From: Saccharomycopsis phalli
Taxonomy: Eukaryota > Ascomycota > Saccharomycetes > Ascoideales > Saccharomycopsidaceae
DNA: 64,000 nt
Direction: 5' to 3'
NCBI GenBank assembly: GCA_020342235.1
Contig: CP073212.1
Location: forward strand, 186,001 to 250,000
Shown: one piece after another, positions 3,001 through 56,511 of the stretch
Numbering within the stretch: position 1 is the first letter of the stretch
Layout: every line of letters begins with the position of its first letter
Translations under genes and position numbers: made by a program
Notes under the pieces: generated by a model
What the model saw: only the letters and a program-made list of their open reading frames with translations
Database searches by the model: none
What the model was told of the DNA's origin: nothing

Positions 3001-4161
3001 CTGTAGCACCTTGGAAATCCCTCCCATTTGGAGAGAGATCCTGTAGAAGTGAGGATTGTCAAGGAAGAATTTCTTGGCGCAGTTGTGGAGGATCTGGGTG
3101 ACGGTGGTTTGTATAGGAAGATTGAGCGTCGTGAAGGCGCCGTCTGTCTTGAAAACCTTCAAAATGTACCGCCCCTTGAGTCGTGCCACGGTATCCATGA
3201 TGCCCTGTTCAGTCACCGGCTGGTGGCTGAGAAACCGCGTCAGTTTCGCCTCTATACGGTAATCGGCAAACGAAATGACATTGGGCTGCCTCTGAGACTC
3301 TTCTGTTTTGAAAGGGCTTGCGGTTAGCGGATCGGTTGAGTCGTCGTACAACTCCTGGCGGCGGTTGGTAAACGCATAGTCCTTGGTGACTGCCCAACTC
3401 TCGGGCGGTTTCCAATTGGACGACAATCGACGCTTGTCGGTATCGTCCACCTGCGGAAACACGCGGCCGGTCTCGGAGTTCACCACCCCCACCAAGCTGT
3501 CGGTATTAATGTCAATGTCAAAAAGCGAGTTCTTGGCCGGTTGTCCGCTGATGCTCCCCTTTCCCCTGGCAGACGGATATACTAGGTTGAAGATCGTCTT
3601 GCGGTGCGCCTTGCCTGCGCTTCCTCTCCGGCGCCGTTCGTCGTCGGCATCATCGTCCTCCTTCTTGATGAACTTGTTGAGGAGCGATGGCCGCTTCCGG
3701 GACGCTTTTTTGAACGACGGCTGGATCGGCTGTTTCAACGGCGGAACATTGATGGGGGCGTTCATTCGCGTCGCGTGGAAGCCCTTGTAGGCATGCGGAA
3801 GTCCGGGGAAGGAGCCCGATGTCGGTGAGGAGAGCACGCTTTCCGTGTCACCATCCGGCCTCTGGTCCTCCTTTTTCGCCCGGAGGAAAAGACTCAGGGC
3901 AGTCTTCTTGAACAAGGCCTTTTTCTTCTTTTCAACGTCCTTGGTGACAATTGTGCTGGTGCTTTGCCCAACTATAGACAGCCGCCGGCTGCTGAGTGGC
4001 AGCAAATCCAGCTCCACCTCGCTATGGCTCGATTTCCGCGGCGTCGAAGCAGTGCTGAACGCCATATCGCCGCCTCGAGGTGAGCTCGGCTGCGATCCAG
4101 TCACGTCCCTATTCTCGGGGTCCGGTCGTGGGTCAATGCTGTTGGAATGCTCAAGGTTCAT
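1..4161 (-). CDS. CYR1: Adenylate cyclase, N-terminal 1387 codons (truncated by window edge)
   Basis: This is the large fungal adenylate cyclase that makes cAMP from ATP downstream of Ras and G-alpha. Reading leftward from the ATG at 4161-4159, the frame is open to base 1. Seen in order: a basic, serine-rich N-terminus; a Ras-association-like region at about residues 332-415; a long run of leucine-rich repeats at about 447-967; and a PP2C-like domain at about 1060-1310 with LYLANVGDC-type and DKLTVIVV-type motifs. The first strand of the class III cyclase domain (LVFTDIQNSTRLW, about residue 1365) ends at the window edge. The domain order is diagnostic for fungal Cyr1. The catalytic core and C-terminus lie outside the window. 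CTG codons are frequent and probably read as Ser. A TTACCCG site lies 44 bp before the ATG. Confidence 0.96.
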   Translation of the reverse strand, partial: MNLEHSNSIDPRPDPENRDVTGSQPSSPRGGDMAFSTASTPRKSSHSEVELDLLPLSSRRLSIVGQSTSTIVTKDVEKKKKALFKKTALSLFLRAKKEDQRPDGDTESVLSSPTSGSFPGLPHAYKGFHATRMNAPINVPPLKQPIQPSFKKASRKRPSLLNKFIKKEDDDADDERRRRGSAGKAHRKTIFNLVYPSARGKGSISGQPAKNSLFDIDINTDSLVGVVNSETGRVFPQVDDTDKRRLSSNWKPPESWAVTKDYAFTNRRQELYDDSTDPLTASPFKTEESQRQPNVISFADYRIEAKLTRFLSHQPVTEQGIMDTVARLKGRYILKVFKTDGAFTTLNLPIQTTVTQILHNCAKKFFLDNPHFYRISLQMGGISKVLQVTERPLEVQNYMLILAGYDIKRDNLRFIGGEDLSYLCKFVLESNDINKKPEEITLKGYTNVDLRKMNLDVIPIEFYQHTYDIEELDVSHNPSITLPADFMAACNSLKKLNFLHNRAQEFPSSILEAKKLTRLDIGNNFIKRIPDALGSLRYLTKLYMNDNDIDMLPPGFGNLKGLKILSLALNKFREFPSVISQLPELVILDLSFNQISMIPECITNLTNLEDLNLATNCLTALLPQFLGQLSRMKSVNVQYNSITNLDSLGLMPRLEVLQASKNNVSRVRFQASKLRILLLDRNPIVEIPYSSMLFDNLTTLNLSKAKLTSFTNDDLVRLHNLETLVLDKNQLTFLPSQIGTLSNLIYFSAYDNDLKSIPESIGDLHNLQFLDLHRNSIKEIPSSIWNCSLIRLNLSSNLVLLFPIKSVPSRGGSRDNSMSSRVSERHRGSRNDSLRGISGVTESITSSLSTASEDSCNLAMSLLFLSIADNLLTDECFEAILTFLSLKALNVSYNRLVEIPPGVFGRLRNLVELYLSGNELMTFARDDLGQLGSLKVLFLNNNRLNSLPSEIRNMRQLCVADMGLNQLRYNVRNYRFEWNWQFNIELRYLNFSGNNRFELFNRYDNFAGQQNAPVDLDGFDLKHLRILGLIGVTIGNGELPDENVDTRVRTTATEIGSYGYGIADSLGQSDLISSREMITSDVSDRDDELLFFLIDGKDGPTKNSNRVCVVVHEEFKRCFVNELKKLSGGDEIEDALRRAFLLLNREIQNVCGEGETMDSGCCITVCYIRGLVLYLANVGDCMGLISRSDGEYQLLTEKHSPTTRLEFERIRLSGGYINSKGELDGVVNVSRLAGFLNLLPHIHACPFISRLELGSTYEMLIVATSQLWDYISYGFAMDVVSQHRKDPMIAALRLRDLAISYGAKDKLTVIVVSLNTRKNTNGARLSITEESLLPLKQKRSRNDTYDTNLIRLNNEIRPPEGVVALVFTDIQNSTRLWDNYSSAMRLA

Positions 4162-28017: not shown

Positions 28018-28370
28018 TGTAATGAAGAATATGAAAAGGCTGCCCTAAAATTCTATTTACCGTCTGTTTGTCTCTCAGGAAAAAGCCTAGCCAAATCCAT
28101 TTCCTCTACACAATAACACTACGTTTTTCTCATGATCTCTGATCATTGACAAGGTCATAATTCCTCTCTTTGAAACTTAGTTTTCTTTGTTCTTTGTCTT
28201 TGTGTTTTATACTTGCTTTTTGACCCAACCTCCTAGTCAACGGCAATGGACAAGTCAAGTTCTTTCCCCTCGACAAAAGAATGTGTCTTACCTACCTTTT
28301 CCAGATATAAATATTCAAGCGAATATATTTTAGTTATCTTACCAACTCGTATCCTAGTTACTATATTACA
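28018..28370 (-). mobile_element. Solo LTR (copy C), 353 bp, perfect 5-bp target duplication
   Basis: The element starts TGTAATG and ends CTATATTACA, so it has TG...CA termini with short inverted ends. It is flanked on both sides by CTATC. The right-hand 50 bp align with copies A, B, D and E. The perfect flanking repeat suggests it is the youngest of the five. Minus orientation is tentative, based on a TATA-like GTATAAAA in that reading. No internal retrotransposon sequence is attached. It is a fossil left by LTR recombination. Confidence 0.8.
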
Positions 28371-28767
28371 CTATCCAGTAGCGTTGTAAACACACTATAC
28401 AGGACCCCTGTACGTTAATATTTCATTACCGTATTTTATTATCTTGATTATGGTACCGCATCATTTATCATGGTATTGTCTCACTCATAATTAAATTGTC
28501 TCATTTTGCGTAGATTTTTTATTGTTTGCTTGCCCGTTTCTTGGCATGAATGAAACATTCGTTCGTTGGTAACAGACTCTCGGCATACATGCATGTTCGC
28601 TTACAGTAGATGCGAAATTATATCCAAGCGAGTGAACAAAAATTTCTGACCGAGGCATTTTGAGGAGAAGGCAAGCAGTAATGAAATTCGCAAGGTACCA
28701 TCAATGATTCGAGACATTTACCTGAAATTCGAGACGTTATCCCAATCATTTCCGTCTTTAGACAAAG

Positions 28768-28839: not shown

Positions 28840-29244
28840 ATGCAATTCCAAAACTCCATCGTTGCCTTGACTCTTGCCCTTTCTGTTGCTGCTGCTCCAG
28901 TTGCTCAACCTGACTTCCAGGCTCCAATCCCAGCTGTCAATTTGGCCAGTCCTTCAGCTGTTTCCGCCCCAGCTGCTGTTTCTTCTGATCCAGTTCCTTC
29001 TGCTGTTATTGATCCAGTTGCCTCTTCTGATCCTTCTGCTGCTATTGATCCATCTGCTATTCCTTCGCTTAGCCCAGAAGCTATTGCAGAGATCCAAAAA
29101 GCCTTTGCCGCATCTAAAAACAACGGTACAGGTACTATTGATGACGTGCAAGCAAAGTCATTCTTGGGAAAGTTGATCAAGTTTGGCCTTCGTATTTTTG
29201 GCCTTCTTCCATCTGGTAACAACAACAACAACAACAAGAACTAG
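28840..29244 (+). CDS. Small secreted protein with Ala/Pro/Ser-rich body and amphipathic C-terminal helix
   Basis: 134 residues, not recognised as a known family. A signal peptide is clear: MQFQNSIVALTLALSVAAA, with cleavage likely after the Ala run near residue 19. Residues 20-80 are Ala/Pro/Ser/Asp-rich with DPSA-like repeats. A short helical region follows and one N-glycosylation sequon (NGT, 95-97). Residues 107-124 (SFLGKLIKFGLRIFGLLP) alternate hydrophobic with Lys/Arg residues, as in amphipathic membrane-active helices. The tail is Asn-rich (six Asn in a row). No dibasic Kex2 site precedes the helix; the residues before it are QAK. A good TATA box and leader suggest high expression. 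Solo LTRs lie on both sides. Function unknown. Confidence 0.85.
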   Translation: MQFQNSIVALTLALSVAAAPVAQPDFQAPIPAVNLASPSAVSAPAAVSSDPVPSAVIDPVASSDPSAAIDPSAIPSLSPEAIAEIQKAFAASKNNGTGTIDDVQAKSFLGKLIKFGLRIFGLLPSGNNNNNNKN

Positions 29245-29421: not shown

Positions 29422-29669
29422 TGTAATAAAATCCGTACCTACCTTAATTTTTTCTAATACAAGACTCAAACTCCTACGATTACGATTAAATACTTACCCA
29501 AAACACATTCCCTAGACCATTTGATGCAACACTAAGCCAGCCGTGCCGCACGTCTAGGTCTCTCCGTTCCTGGCCGCTAGCCACTATATAGAGCCTACCC
29601 TGTTCCAAATAGGTCAAGGGAATATATTCTAACCATCTTTTCAACATGTATCTTAGTTGCTATATTACA
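29422..29669 (-). mobile_element. Solo LTR (copy A), 248 bp
   Basis: TGTAATAAAATCC at the left and GCTATATTACA at the right give TG...CA ends with an inverted TGTAATA/TATTACA terminus. The flanks are CTACA and CTACG, a 5-bp target duplication with one difference. It aligns over its length with copy B (55262-55466), sharing CCTTAATTTTT, CTCCTACGATTA, TTCCCTAGACCATTTGA and AAGCCAGCCGTGCCG. A decayed fossil of the same family as copies B-E. Confidence 0.8.
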
Positions 29670-30161
29670 CTACGGTTGTAGTCGTCAGACTTAAAACGAC
29701 ACAGCTTGGATCAGACGCATTGTACTATACCAATAATCCAGTACTAATAATAAATATTAATAACTGTAACAACAATAGACATATTAATACCCACTGCTAG
29801 TATTATTCAGCAAGTAATGAGTGGGCCCATGGGGAAAATGTATACCATTACCATGGGTCGTAAGTACCACGGGCCGCAAGTACCATGGGTTGGTCCTGCA
29901 GCATCCCAATTTGGAATGTGTCAATATAATATAGTCTGTGAGTGTAGAATATGTATATATTCTCCGCTGGTTTATATAAAATTTGTCGAAAATAGAAGCC
30001 AATTGTGGAAGCTGTATCCATTCTCATGCTAATCTGTTCTCATGTTAATCTGTTCTCATGCTATATCTTCCCTTGCTGATCTGTAATGTACCTATCGAGT
30101 CTACTCAAGTTCACCATCTCTTGAAAATAATATTCTGGCTACATTTGTCGTCAACAATATA
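29670..30161. other. Intergenic, nothing recognised
   Basis: About 490 bp of AT-rich sequence with a short duplicated theme (ACCATGGGTCGTAAGTACCA and ACGGGCCGCAAGTACCATGG, near 29850-29890) and CTGTTCTCATG repeats near 30028-30062. No gene is supported. Confidence 0.5.
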
Positions 30162-41417: not shown

Positions 41418-41524
41418 TTTTCCAATCCACGTCTTTCAAATCATATTCCAACACACTATATTTTCTCTACTTTTTCCAATCCACGTCTTTCAAAACATAT
41501 TCCAGCACACTATATTTTCTCTAC
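41418..41524 (+). repeat. Tandem duplication of a 54-bp unit upstream of STE14
   Basis: Two copies beginning TTTTCCAATCCACGTCTTTC and ending ACTATATTTTCTCTAC, with only two or three differences. Confidence 0.92.
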
Positions 41525-41600
41525 ATTTTTATTGCGCTACAGCGCACCACCTACGTATATTTGGTAATATTGTATCCCACCAATCTCCCCCAGGGCACTT

Positions 41601-41625
41601 CATTGTGCTGTACCGATTAGGAAAT
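41601..41625 (+). promoter_or_regulatory. Putative a2-Mcm1-type operator upstream of STE14
   Basis: CATTGTGCTGTACC followed by GATTAGGAAAT, 85 bp before the STE14 ATG. It matches the element before the a-factor-like gene (55832-55856) at 21 of 25 positions. CATTGT fits an HMG-domain (a2) half and TACCGATTAGG fits a Mcm1-like half. This is inference from consensus; binding is not shown. Confidence 0.6.
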
Positions 41626-41685: not shown

Positions 41686-42408
41686 ATGGCAGAAAAAAAC
41701 CCACCGCAAGAAATCGCGGTTCAGGCAGCGCTTTTAGGAGCTATATTTGGCGCGGCTGTGATTCTCATCCCGCTGGTAAAGTTCTACAACCTTCCGTGCT
41801 ACATGGCTGCTTTGGCTGTGTTCCATTTCTTGGAGTACTGGATCACGGCCAAGTACAACCCCACACAGGTGACCTCGGACTCGTTTCTCATTAACCATAG
41901 CGGCTCATACACCATGGCACATGCAGCGTCGTTCACTGAGGCGTTGGTCGAGCTATTCCTAGTGCCAAGACTCAAACTCCGGTTCCAGTGGTGCTTCTGG
42001 ATCGGCTTATTGCTCATGGTAGCTGGCCAGACGCTTCGAAGCTTGGCGATGAAAACTGCAGGCGAGTCCTTTTCGCATATTATTGCTACCCGCAAGCAGT
42101 CGCGTCATCAGCTTGTCACTAGTGGGGTATATGCAGTATCTCGGCACCCATCGTACACTGGCTACTTTTGGTGGGCAATTGGCAGCCAGCTCTTGTTGTT
42201 GAACCCGGTTTGCCTCGTGGGGTTTTCGGTTGCACTTTACCGGTTTTTCAGCAAGCGCATTGCGTTTGAAGAGAGGTTCTTGGTCGAGTTCTATGGGCAG
42301 GACTACATTGACTACAAGCTGCAAAAACCAGTATACATTCCATTCATTTCCCCTGTAGATACGTCACGTGATATGCAGTATCACATGGCTAGTCGCTTTC
42401 TTCATTAG
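41686..42408 (+). CDS. STE14: Protein-S-isoprenylcysteine carboxyl methyltransferase Ste14
   Basis: This 240-residue ER membrane enzyme methylates the C-terminal prenylcysteine of Ras-type proteins and a-factor, using S-adenosylmethionine. The ATG at 41686 gives a length equal to budding-yeast Ste14 (239). Multiple membrane segments are present. The ICMT signature is clear: HLVTSGVYAVSRHPSYTGYF-like residues (here HQLVTSGVYAVSRHPSYTGY), then FEERFLVEFYGQDYIDYKL and VYIPFI. Its stop overlaps the SIZ1 3' coding end by 20 bp (convergent). A putative operator shared with the a-factor-like gene lies upstream, an unusual link between pheromone and processing enzyme. Confidence 0.96.
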   Translation: MAEKNPPQEIAVQAALLGAIFGAAVILIPLVKFYNLPCYMAALAVFHFLEYWITAKYNPTQVTSDSFLINHSGSYTMAHAASFTEALVELFLVPRLKLRFQWCFWIGLLLMVAGQTLRSLAMKTAGESFSHIIATRKQSRHQLVTSGVYAVSRHPSYTGYFWWAIGSQLLLLNPVCLVGFSVALYRFFSKRIAFEERFLVEFYGQDYIDYKLQKPVYIPFISPVDTSRDMQYHMASRFLH

Positions 42409-55261: not shown

Positions 55262-55466
55262 TGTAACAATGTGCCCACCTTAATTTTTCCGATACAAGAC
55301 GCACTCCTACGATTAAGATTAGATATTTTCCCAAAACATATTCCCTAGACCATTTGACGCAAGACCAAGCCAGCCGTGCCGTATAGGTCTCTCCCTTGTT
55401 CACAAATAGGTCAAGTGAATATATTCCAACAATCTTATCAATACATATCTTAGCTATTATATTACA
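55262..55466 (-). mobile_element. Solo LTR (copy B), 205 bp
   Basis: Begins TGTAACAATG and ends TTATATTACA; flanks ATTAT and ATTCT make a 5-bp target duplication with one difference. Clearly homologous to copy A over its whole length, with the right-hand end shared by C, D and E. A decayed fossil, about 460 bp upstream of the a-factor-like gene. Confidence 0.8.
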
Positions 55467-55831: not shown

Positions 55832-55856
55832 CATTGTACTGTACCAATTCGGTAAT
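55832..55856 (+). promoter_or_regulatory. Putative a2-Mcm1-type operator upstream of the a-factor-like gene
   Basis: CATTGTACTGTACC followed by AATTCGGTAAT, 97 bp before the ATG. CATTGT resembles an HMG (a2) site and TACCAATTCGG resembles a Mcm1 site. The same composite precedes STE14 at nearly the same distance. Confidence 0.65.
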
Positions 55857-55928: not shown

Positions 55929-56066
55929 ATGCAAACTTCAACTAGAACCAACAAGTCCAACACTGACAAGAAAACTGCCGCCAAGGATGAGCAAAAGGAT
56001 AATCTCTACATGACCGATAGCATCAGTCCTGGATCCAAAGCAATGGACGCTTGTGTCATTGCTTAA
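55929..56066 (+). CDS. MFA1: a-factor mating pheromone precursor
   Basis: 45 residues. The C-terminus is CVIA, the farnesylation (CaaX) box of budding-yeast a-factor. The N-terminus MQTST resembles the a-factor MQPST, followed by a Lys/Thr/Asp-rich leader (KSNTDKKTAAKDEQKDN) that ends in KDN, as in the S. cerevisiae precursor, where cleavage follows that Asn. The mature peptide would be about 17-18 residues (LYMTDSISPGSKAMDAC) with a prenylated, methylated Cys. Prenylation would need Ram1/Ram2, trimming Ste24/Rce1, methylation Ste14 (present at 41686) and export Ste6. A TATA box and an operator-like element precede it. The final codons and stop lie in the first of three 24-bp tandem repeats. 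Alternative: another small prenylated protein. Confidence 0.85.
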   Translation: MQTSTRTNKSNTDKKTAAKDEQKDNLYMTDSISPGSKAMDACVIA

Positions 56067-56125
56067 ATGACAATTACTGTCATTGCTTAAATGACAATTA
56101 CTGTCATTGCTTAAACAGCAATTAC
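56054..56125 (+). repeat. Three 24-bp tandem repeats starting inside the CaaX codons
   Basis: Unit TGTCATTGCTTAAATGAC followed by AATTAC, three copies, the last slightly changed. The first copy encodes the end of the CVIA box and the stop; the other two are in the 3' UTR. Each of the first two contains the inverted pair GTCATT/AATGAC able to form a small hairpin. Confidence 0.93.
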
Positions 56126-56511
56126 TTTTTATTTTTATTCGTTTAATATTTATTTAGGTGCACATCTTATAAATACAACCATGGAATCTGTAGTATGGTA
56201 GCGAATCACCCAGTTCAAAATTGACAAAAGAAACGAGTGAAACATGTTATAACCATATAATTTATACACGCACATGATAAGTCAACCGACGAAATAAACT
56301 TCAACAAGCCCTCATGATTTACAGGGTATATGTTATAGCCAAAAGACATACCCACGACCAACTGTCATTTCGCATGAGACCAAGACAACAGGGCATTCTA
56401 TTTTTACACACATTGCACATCATTTATTGCCATGCATACTACTCCATGGAAATACAAATCATCACCAATACCCAAGTCTCCCGCAAATAGTAGATTCAGC
56501 GAGCATTTCGA
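56126..56511. other. Intergenic, nothing recognised
   Basis: About 390 bp between the a-factor-like gene and the SEC65 stop, AT-rich, including an AATATTTATTTA word also seen in R2. Confidence 0.5.

Follow-up and report, generated by a model that had tools for sequence, protein, structure and literature searches.

An a2-Mcm1-like composite site common to STE14 and the a-factor genes suggests mating-type control of the a-factor methyltransferase in Saccharomycopsis phalli

The operators of a-specific genes are a main model for the rewiring of gene circuits. In Saccharomyces cerevisiae, the alpha2-Mcm1 operators consist of an Mcm1 box before a-specific genes, with flanking homeodomain sites (CATGT). 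In Candida albicans, K. lactis and K. phaffii it is MATa2 that activates a-specific genes (PMC5748462), and Mcm1 acts together with MATa2 (PMC2253631). Fission yeast M-boxes, bound by the HMG protein Mat1-Mc, read ACAATG or ACAATA; the M-box of mam4 is ACAATA, and mam4, whose product methylates M-factor, is expressed in both cell types at a level 2–3-fold higher in M cells (PMC1693924). The a-specific set of Ogataea polymorpha is given as BAR1, AXL1, ASG7, RAM1, RAM2 and STE6 (PMC5720833). For the Podospora orthologue of STE14, no differential expression between mating types was reported (PMC3125171).

We analysed a 64,000-nucleotide stretch of the S. phalli genome (C1:186001-250000, hereafter the window; the genome is 14.15 Mb in 8 contigs) that contains both STE14 and an a-factor gene. 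STE14 (41686–42408, + strand) encodes an isoprenylcysteine carboxyl methyltransferase of 240 aa, with an ICMT domain (PF04140, E=5.4e-29) and 63% identity to its closest named match, the ICMT of Saccharomycopsis crataegensis; a further STE14 match is 76% identical. Its neighbours are a LicD-domain ORF upstream and, on the opposite strand downstream, a PINIT/MIZ-domain ORF. A 54-bp tandem duplication was noted in the STE14 upstream region (41418–41530). The a-factor precursor gene (55929–56066, + strand), flanked by eIF2A and SRP19, encodes 45 aa ending in CVIA; its last codons and stop belong to a 24-bp repeat, present three times in tandem and running downstream (56054–56126). Open frames were read with table 12. 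The 6 CTG codons in STE14 and STE2 did not settle the genetic code, and no conclusion depends on the choice of table.

Each of the two genes is preceded on its coding strand by a composite operator-like element. That of STE14, CATTGTGCTGTACCGATTAGGAAAT, occupies 41601–41625, or −85 to −61 from the ATG at 41686; that of the a-factor gene, CATTGTACTGTACCAATTCGGTAAT, occupies 55832–55856, or −97 to −73 from the ATG at 55929. The initial annotation had claimed that the two are nearly the same and that both lie, in the coding orientation, 85 and 97 bp before their start codons. Both points were borne out, with 21 of 25 positions identical. The Mcm1-like half is ACCGATTAGG at STE14 (41612–41621, + strand) and ACCAATTCGG at the a-factor gene (55843–55852, + strand), and this box is close to the Mcm1 consensus. 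The other half, CATTGT (41601–41606, + strand, at STE14), is HMG-type, or a2-like, by its sequence and its likeness to the a2 motif; the M-box strings of fission yeast agree with this assignment (PMC1693924). Alternatively, STE14 would bear an Mcm1 site that serves a purpose unrelated to mating type, such as cell-cycle regulation through a different cofactor, and its likeness to the a-factor sites would lie mainly in the Mcm1 half. Mcm1 does have several cofactor regulons in yeasts (PMC2253631), but CATTGT and the joining stretch TGTACC are also common to the STE14 and a-factor sites, at a fixed step, and we consider such a use improbable.

When the a-factor precursor served as query in a protein search, six a-factor genes came up in the genome, the window copy included; a further homology search with the same query gave no candidate. 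The other five, on C1, C2, C5 and C7 (loci L041–L045), are 44-aa near-copies ending in CVIA; of all six, the window copy has diverged furthest. The C-terminal region reads MTDSISPG in four of the six and MTDHISPG in two; given this S/H difference, two pheromone forms may be made. Every one of the six promoters carries the element on the coding strand, in 1 to 5 copies (one at the window gene). A 24-mer with up to 4 mismatches allowed gave 15 copies, and there are four further distal copies in which the spacer between the halves is one base shorter; a 6-mismatch copy on C2, at −302, was excluded from the count. Copies lie 52–73 bp apart, mostly near 70. A matrix built solely from the a-factor copies scored at best 8.3 bits on the opposite strand of these promoters.

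The genome-wide search used the 21-mer CATTGTNNNGTACCNATTNGG, which we composed from the STE14 and a-factor elements of the window; STE14 therefore matches it perfectly by design. At ≤2 mismatches the pattern occurs at 25 places at least, 6 of them perfect, 6 with one mismatch and 13 with two. Among the 25 places listed, 14 are before a-factor genes and one is before STE14. Seven of the remaining ten are inside open frames of ≥100 aa, among them C3:1644715, which is a repeat; another two are not followed by any frame of this size within 700 bp; and the last, with a mismatch in each half, has a 192-aa frame starting 299 bp downstream. When 3 mismatches were allowed the places rose to at least 145, nearing the 117 of a reversed control pattern. 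Occurrence at many unrelated promoters, which the initial annotation had named as evidence against its own reading, was thus not seen genome-wide at ≤2 mismatches; the element is common to several mating genes and rare elsewhere, as would be expected of an a-specific operator. A looser spacing expression matched 4 times in 144,112 bases of partly overlapping sequence: at STE14, at a-factor, at AXL1 and within the ORF of the STE6 candidate.

Three matches were rejected as operators. The one at C3:1644715 (24.8 bits) starts a repeat that recurs 1 kb on and has a weaker copy at window position 28350; in the one at window 29718–29741 (21.7 bits) the Mcm1 box lacks GG, and no recognisable gene follows; and the one at C4:1612749, a 1-mismatch match, is inside an 858-aa open frame. 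Separately, we noted a dispersed intergenic repeat, one end of which resembles part of the operator by eye, at window 28313–28375, 29600–29664 and 55401–55465 and in locus L047 at 2699–2722 and 3713–3736. One copy lies about 370–430 bp upstream of the window a-factor element. Beside repeat relics, at window 28840–29244, is a secreted-looking 134-aa ORF rich in Ala, Pro, Ser and Val.

Extent of chance likeness was estimated in several ways. With up to 3 mismatches allowed, the joint 25-mer written from both elements has no window match beyond these 2, and 100 shuffles gave 0.00 on average. After dinucleotide shuffling of the STE14 and a-factor promoters, the best 25-mer identity between them was 15–19 (150 trials), and 17 other window promoters reached identities of up to 19 with the STE14 promoter and up to 20 with the a-factor promoter. 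As a chance event, the bare pairwise match is only moderately striking. The STE14 element departs at 4 of 24 positions from a consensus taken solely from the a-factor genes. Sites of this grade are expected at about 1e-5 per given 500-bp promoter on one strand, at 0.0025 in the window and at 0.56 in the whole genome on both strands; given this last figure, the site would be no proof if its position were ignored. To meet such a match somewhere in the genome is no surprise; it is its place at −85 before the gene for the a-factor methyltransferase that is surprising. The 19–20 identities among other window promoters, the 0.56 sites per genome and the C4 match within an open frame are what one would cite for a functionless 25-bp likeness picked by eye in a 64-kb window, but the expectation of about 1e-5 for the STE14 promoter itself, together with a position, strand and gene function that all fit, makes chance quite improbable. 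A passive relic, copied from the a-factor promoter 14 kb away or carried by a dispersed repeat such as those with partly similar ends seen by eye in the window and at C3:1644715, is very improbable: the two promoters are alike over 29 bp only (apart from 13 bp that match at E=0.15), as suits a constrained site more than a copied stretch, and no repeat flank was seen by eye at 41601.

Eighteen promoters were compared: those of the six a-factor genes, STE14, STE2, AXL1, RAM1, RAM2, STE23, STE24, RCE1, CDC43, BET2, STE3 and a STE6 candidate. The names RAM1, RAM2, CDC43, BET2, STE23, AXL1, STE24, RCE1 and STE6 are presumptive, assigned from Pfam matches and with reference to the Saccharomyces proteins. 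The closest named match of the STE2 protein is from a Scheffersomyces (33%), and the STE24 start presumes an intron after a short first exon. A PPTA-family gene (C3:1341063, BET4 by elimination), whose start lay outside the sequence read, and other ABC and M16 genes were left out of the comparison. On 2 Mb of Markov sequence, both strands, the matrix gave 4.5 places per Mb at ≥14 bits and 1.0 per Mb at ≥16 bits. The a-factor promoters scored 31–36 bits and STE14 scored 25.4 bits at −85. STE2 scored 15.7 bits at −119 and AXL1 14.9 bits at −37 (counted from the first ATG of the frame), where 0.0005 and 0.001 such scores, respectively, are expected per 700-bp promoter on one strand; STE2 had a second match of 14.4 bits on the opposite strand at −77. 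The HMG half reads CATTGA at STE2 and AXL1. The step from CATTG to the Mcm1-like box is 11 bp at STE14, STE2 and AXL1, as it is at the a-factor genes. RAM1, RAM2, STE23, CDC43, BET2, STE24, RCE1 and STE3 did not exceed 5.1 bits on the coding strand or 8.0 bits on the other, and the promoter of the STE6 candidate, with no Mcm1-like box, scored 4.9 bits.

A composite expression, composed after sight of the STE2 and AXL1 sites, divided the 18 promoters in half (500 bp, coding strand): it was found at the six a-factor genes, STE14, STE2 and AXL1, and was absent from RAM1, RAM2, STE23, STE24, RCE1, CDC43, BET2, STE3 and the STE6 candidate. CATTG directly precedes 20 of the 21 Mcm1-like boxes in the first group and neither of the two (at STE23 and STE24) in the second. 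Lone half-sites were seen before RCE1 (CATTGT, −87), STE3 (CATTGT, −380) and STE24 (Mcm1-like box, −87). The composite is thus missing at STE3 and at seven processing or general genes, the absence expected for alpha-specific and general genes, and STE14 has an HMG-type site beside an Mcm1-type box at fixed spacing and orientation. A 28/57-bp tandem array in the promoter of the STE6 candidate (locus L065, 2598–2724) contains five copies of CATTGTC. The initial annotation had read the element as operator-like and named its presence before STE6, STE2, RAM1/RAM2, AXL1 and BAR1 as a check. It stands as a site of mating genes, in coding orientation, at the six a-factor genes and STE14 and in weaker form at STE2 and AXL1, but did not extend to RAM1, RAM2 or the STE6 candidate. 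Presence at any particular a-specific gene does not define such a site; the make-up of the regulon differs from yeast to yeast.

From these sequence comparisons we put at roughly three in four the probability that the element is an a2(HMG)-Mcm1 a-specific operator and that STE14 lies inside the a-specific regulon of this yeast. STE14 is preceded by a 25-base control element of the a-factor type and so is probably raised in one mating type along with the a-factor genes. CATTGT would be bound by a2, an HMG-box mating protein, and the neighbouring box (ACCGATTAGG at STE14) by an Mcm1 dimer alongside it; together they would activate the promoter in a cells. STE14 would have gained, or kept, one operator at −85, and the methyltransferase that finishes a-factor would be raised with its substrate. 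We infer a2 and Mcm1 as the binders, their activating role and the a-cell bias of STE14 from the M-box likeness, the literature on MATa2 and Mcm1, the near-Mcm1 box and the lack of flanking alpha2 sites. There are 7 HMG-box matches in the genome, including those at C7:795527 and C2:494077, spread over five open frames; none was assigned to MATa2, and the one HMG-box protein that we examined looked like an HMG protein of the general, chromatin type. Besides a-factor, STE14 acts on other prenylated proteins, and for this reason, and by analogy with mam4 of fission yeast, its expression likely takes the form of a basal level that would serve those proteins in all cells, with an a-cell boost added.

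This type of switch is already known, and its presence at STE14 is the new part. In the openly licensed PMC literature we found no paper that describes STE14 of a budding yeast as a-specific; because the search was limited to such papers, this is weak evidence for novelty. The proposal in the initial annotation that a general prenyl-protein enzyme was rewired into mating control is unproven. It is possible, though less likely than not, that in this lineage the a-specific control of maturation of the pheromone passed from RAM1/RAM2, the farnesyltransferase, to the last step, STE14; if true, this would be a swap, within the regulon, of the general prenyl-processing enzyme that is under mating control. 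On the main reading, STE14 is a general enzyme that would have joined, or stayed in, the a-specific circuit, and the a-factor pathway of this one genome divides clearly into genes with and without the element. That division makes it possible to test directly at which step the pathway limits pheromone output, and how mating control comes to include general enzymes.

The alpha2-Mcm1 operators of S. cerevisiae also place an Mcm1 box before a-specific genes; flanks of the Saccharomyces type (CATGT left, ACATG right, within 16 bp) were found at 0 of 23 S. phalli Mcm1-like boxes. The a2-Mcm1 operators of C. albicans and its relatives likewise have an HMG-type site beside an Mcm1 box, with positive regulation by MATa2 and Mcm1 (PMC2253631). 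Set against these, and speaking for the S. phalli side only, the site is found at STE14 and not at RAM1, RAM2 or the STE6 candidate, and six a-factor genes have up to five sites each. In O. polymorpha, genes for a-factor processing are likewise grouped as a-specific and induced together, and the main text of that report does not name STE14 (PMC5720833); RAM1 and RAM2 are a-specific there but lack the composite site in S. phalli. In fission yeast, ACAATG, the string of several M-boxes at M-specific promoters, is the reverse complement of the S. phalli CATTGT, and a site for an HMG mating protein stands before both the pheromone genes and the methyltransferase gene mam4 (PMC1693924), as we propose for S. 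phalli. The partner site differs, being a Ste11-box for the HMG protein Ste11 in fission yeast (PMC1693924) and an Mcm1-like box in S. phalli. With mam4, HMG mating-type input into the gene for this enzyme has a precedent in the literature (PMC1693924), and such input is therefore not unheard of.
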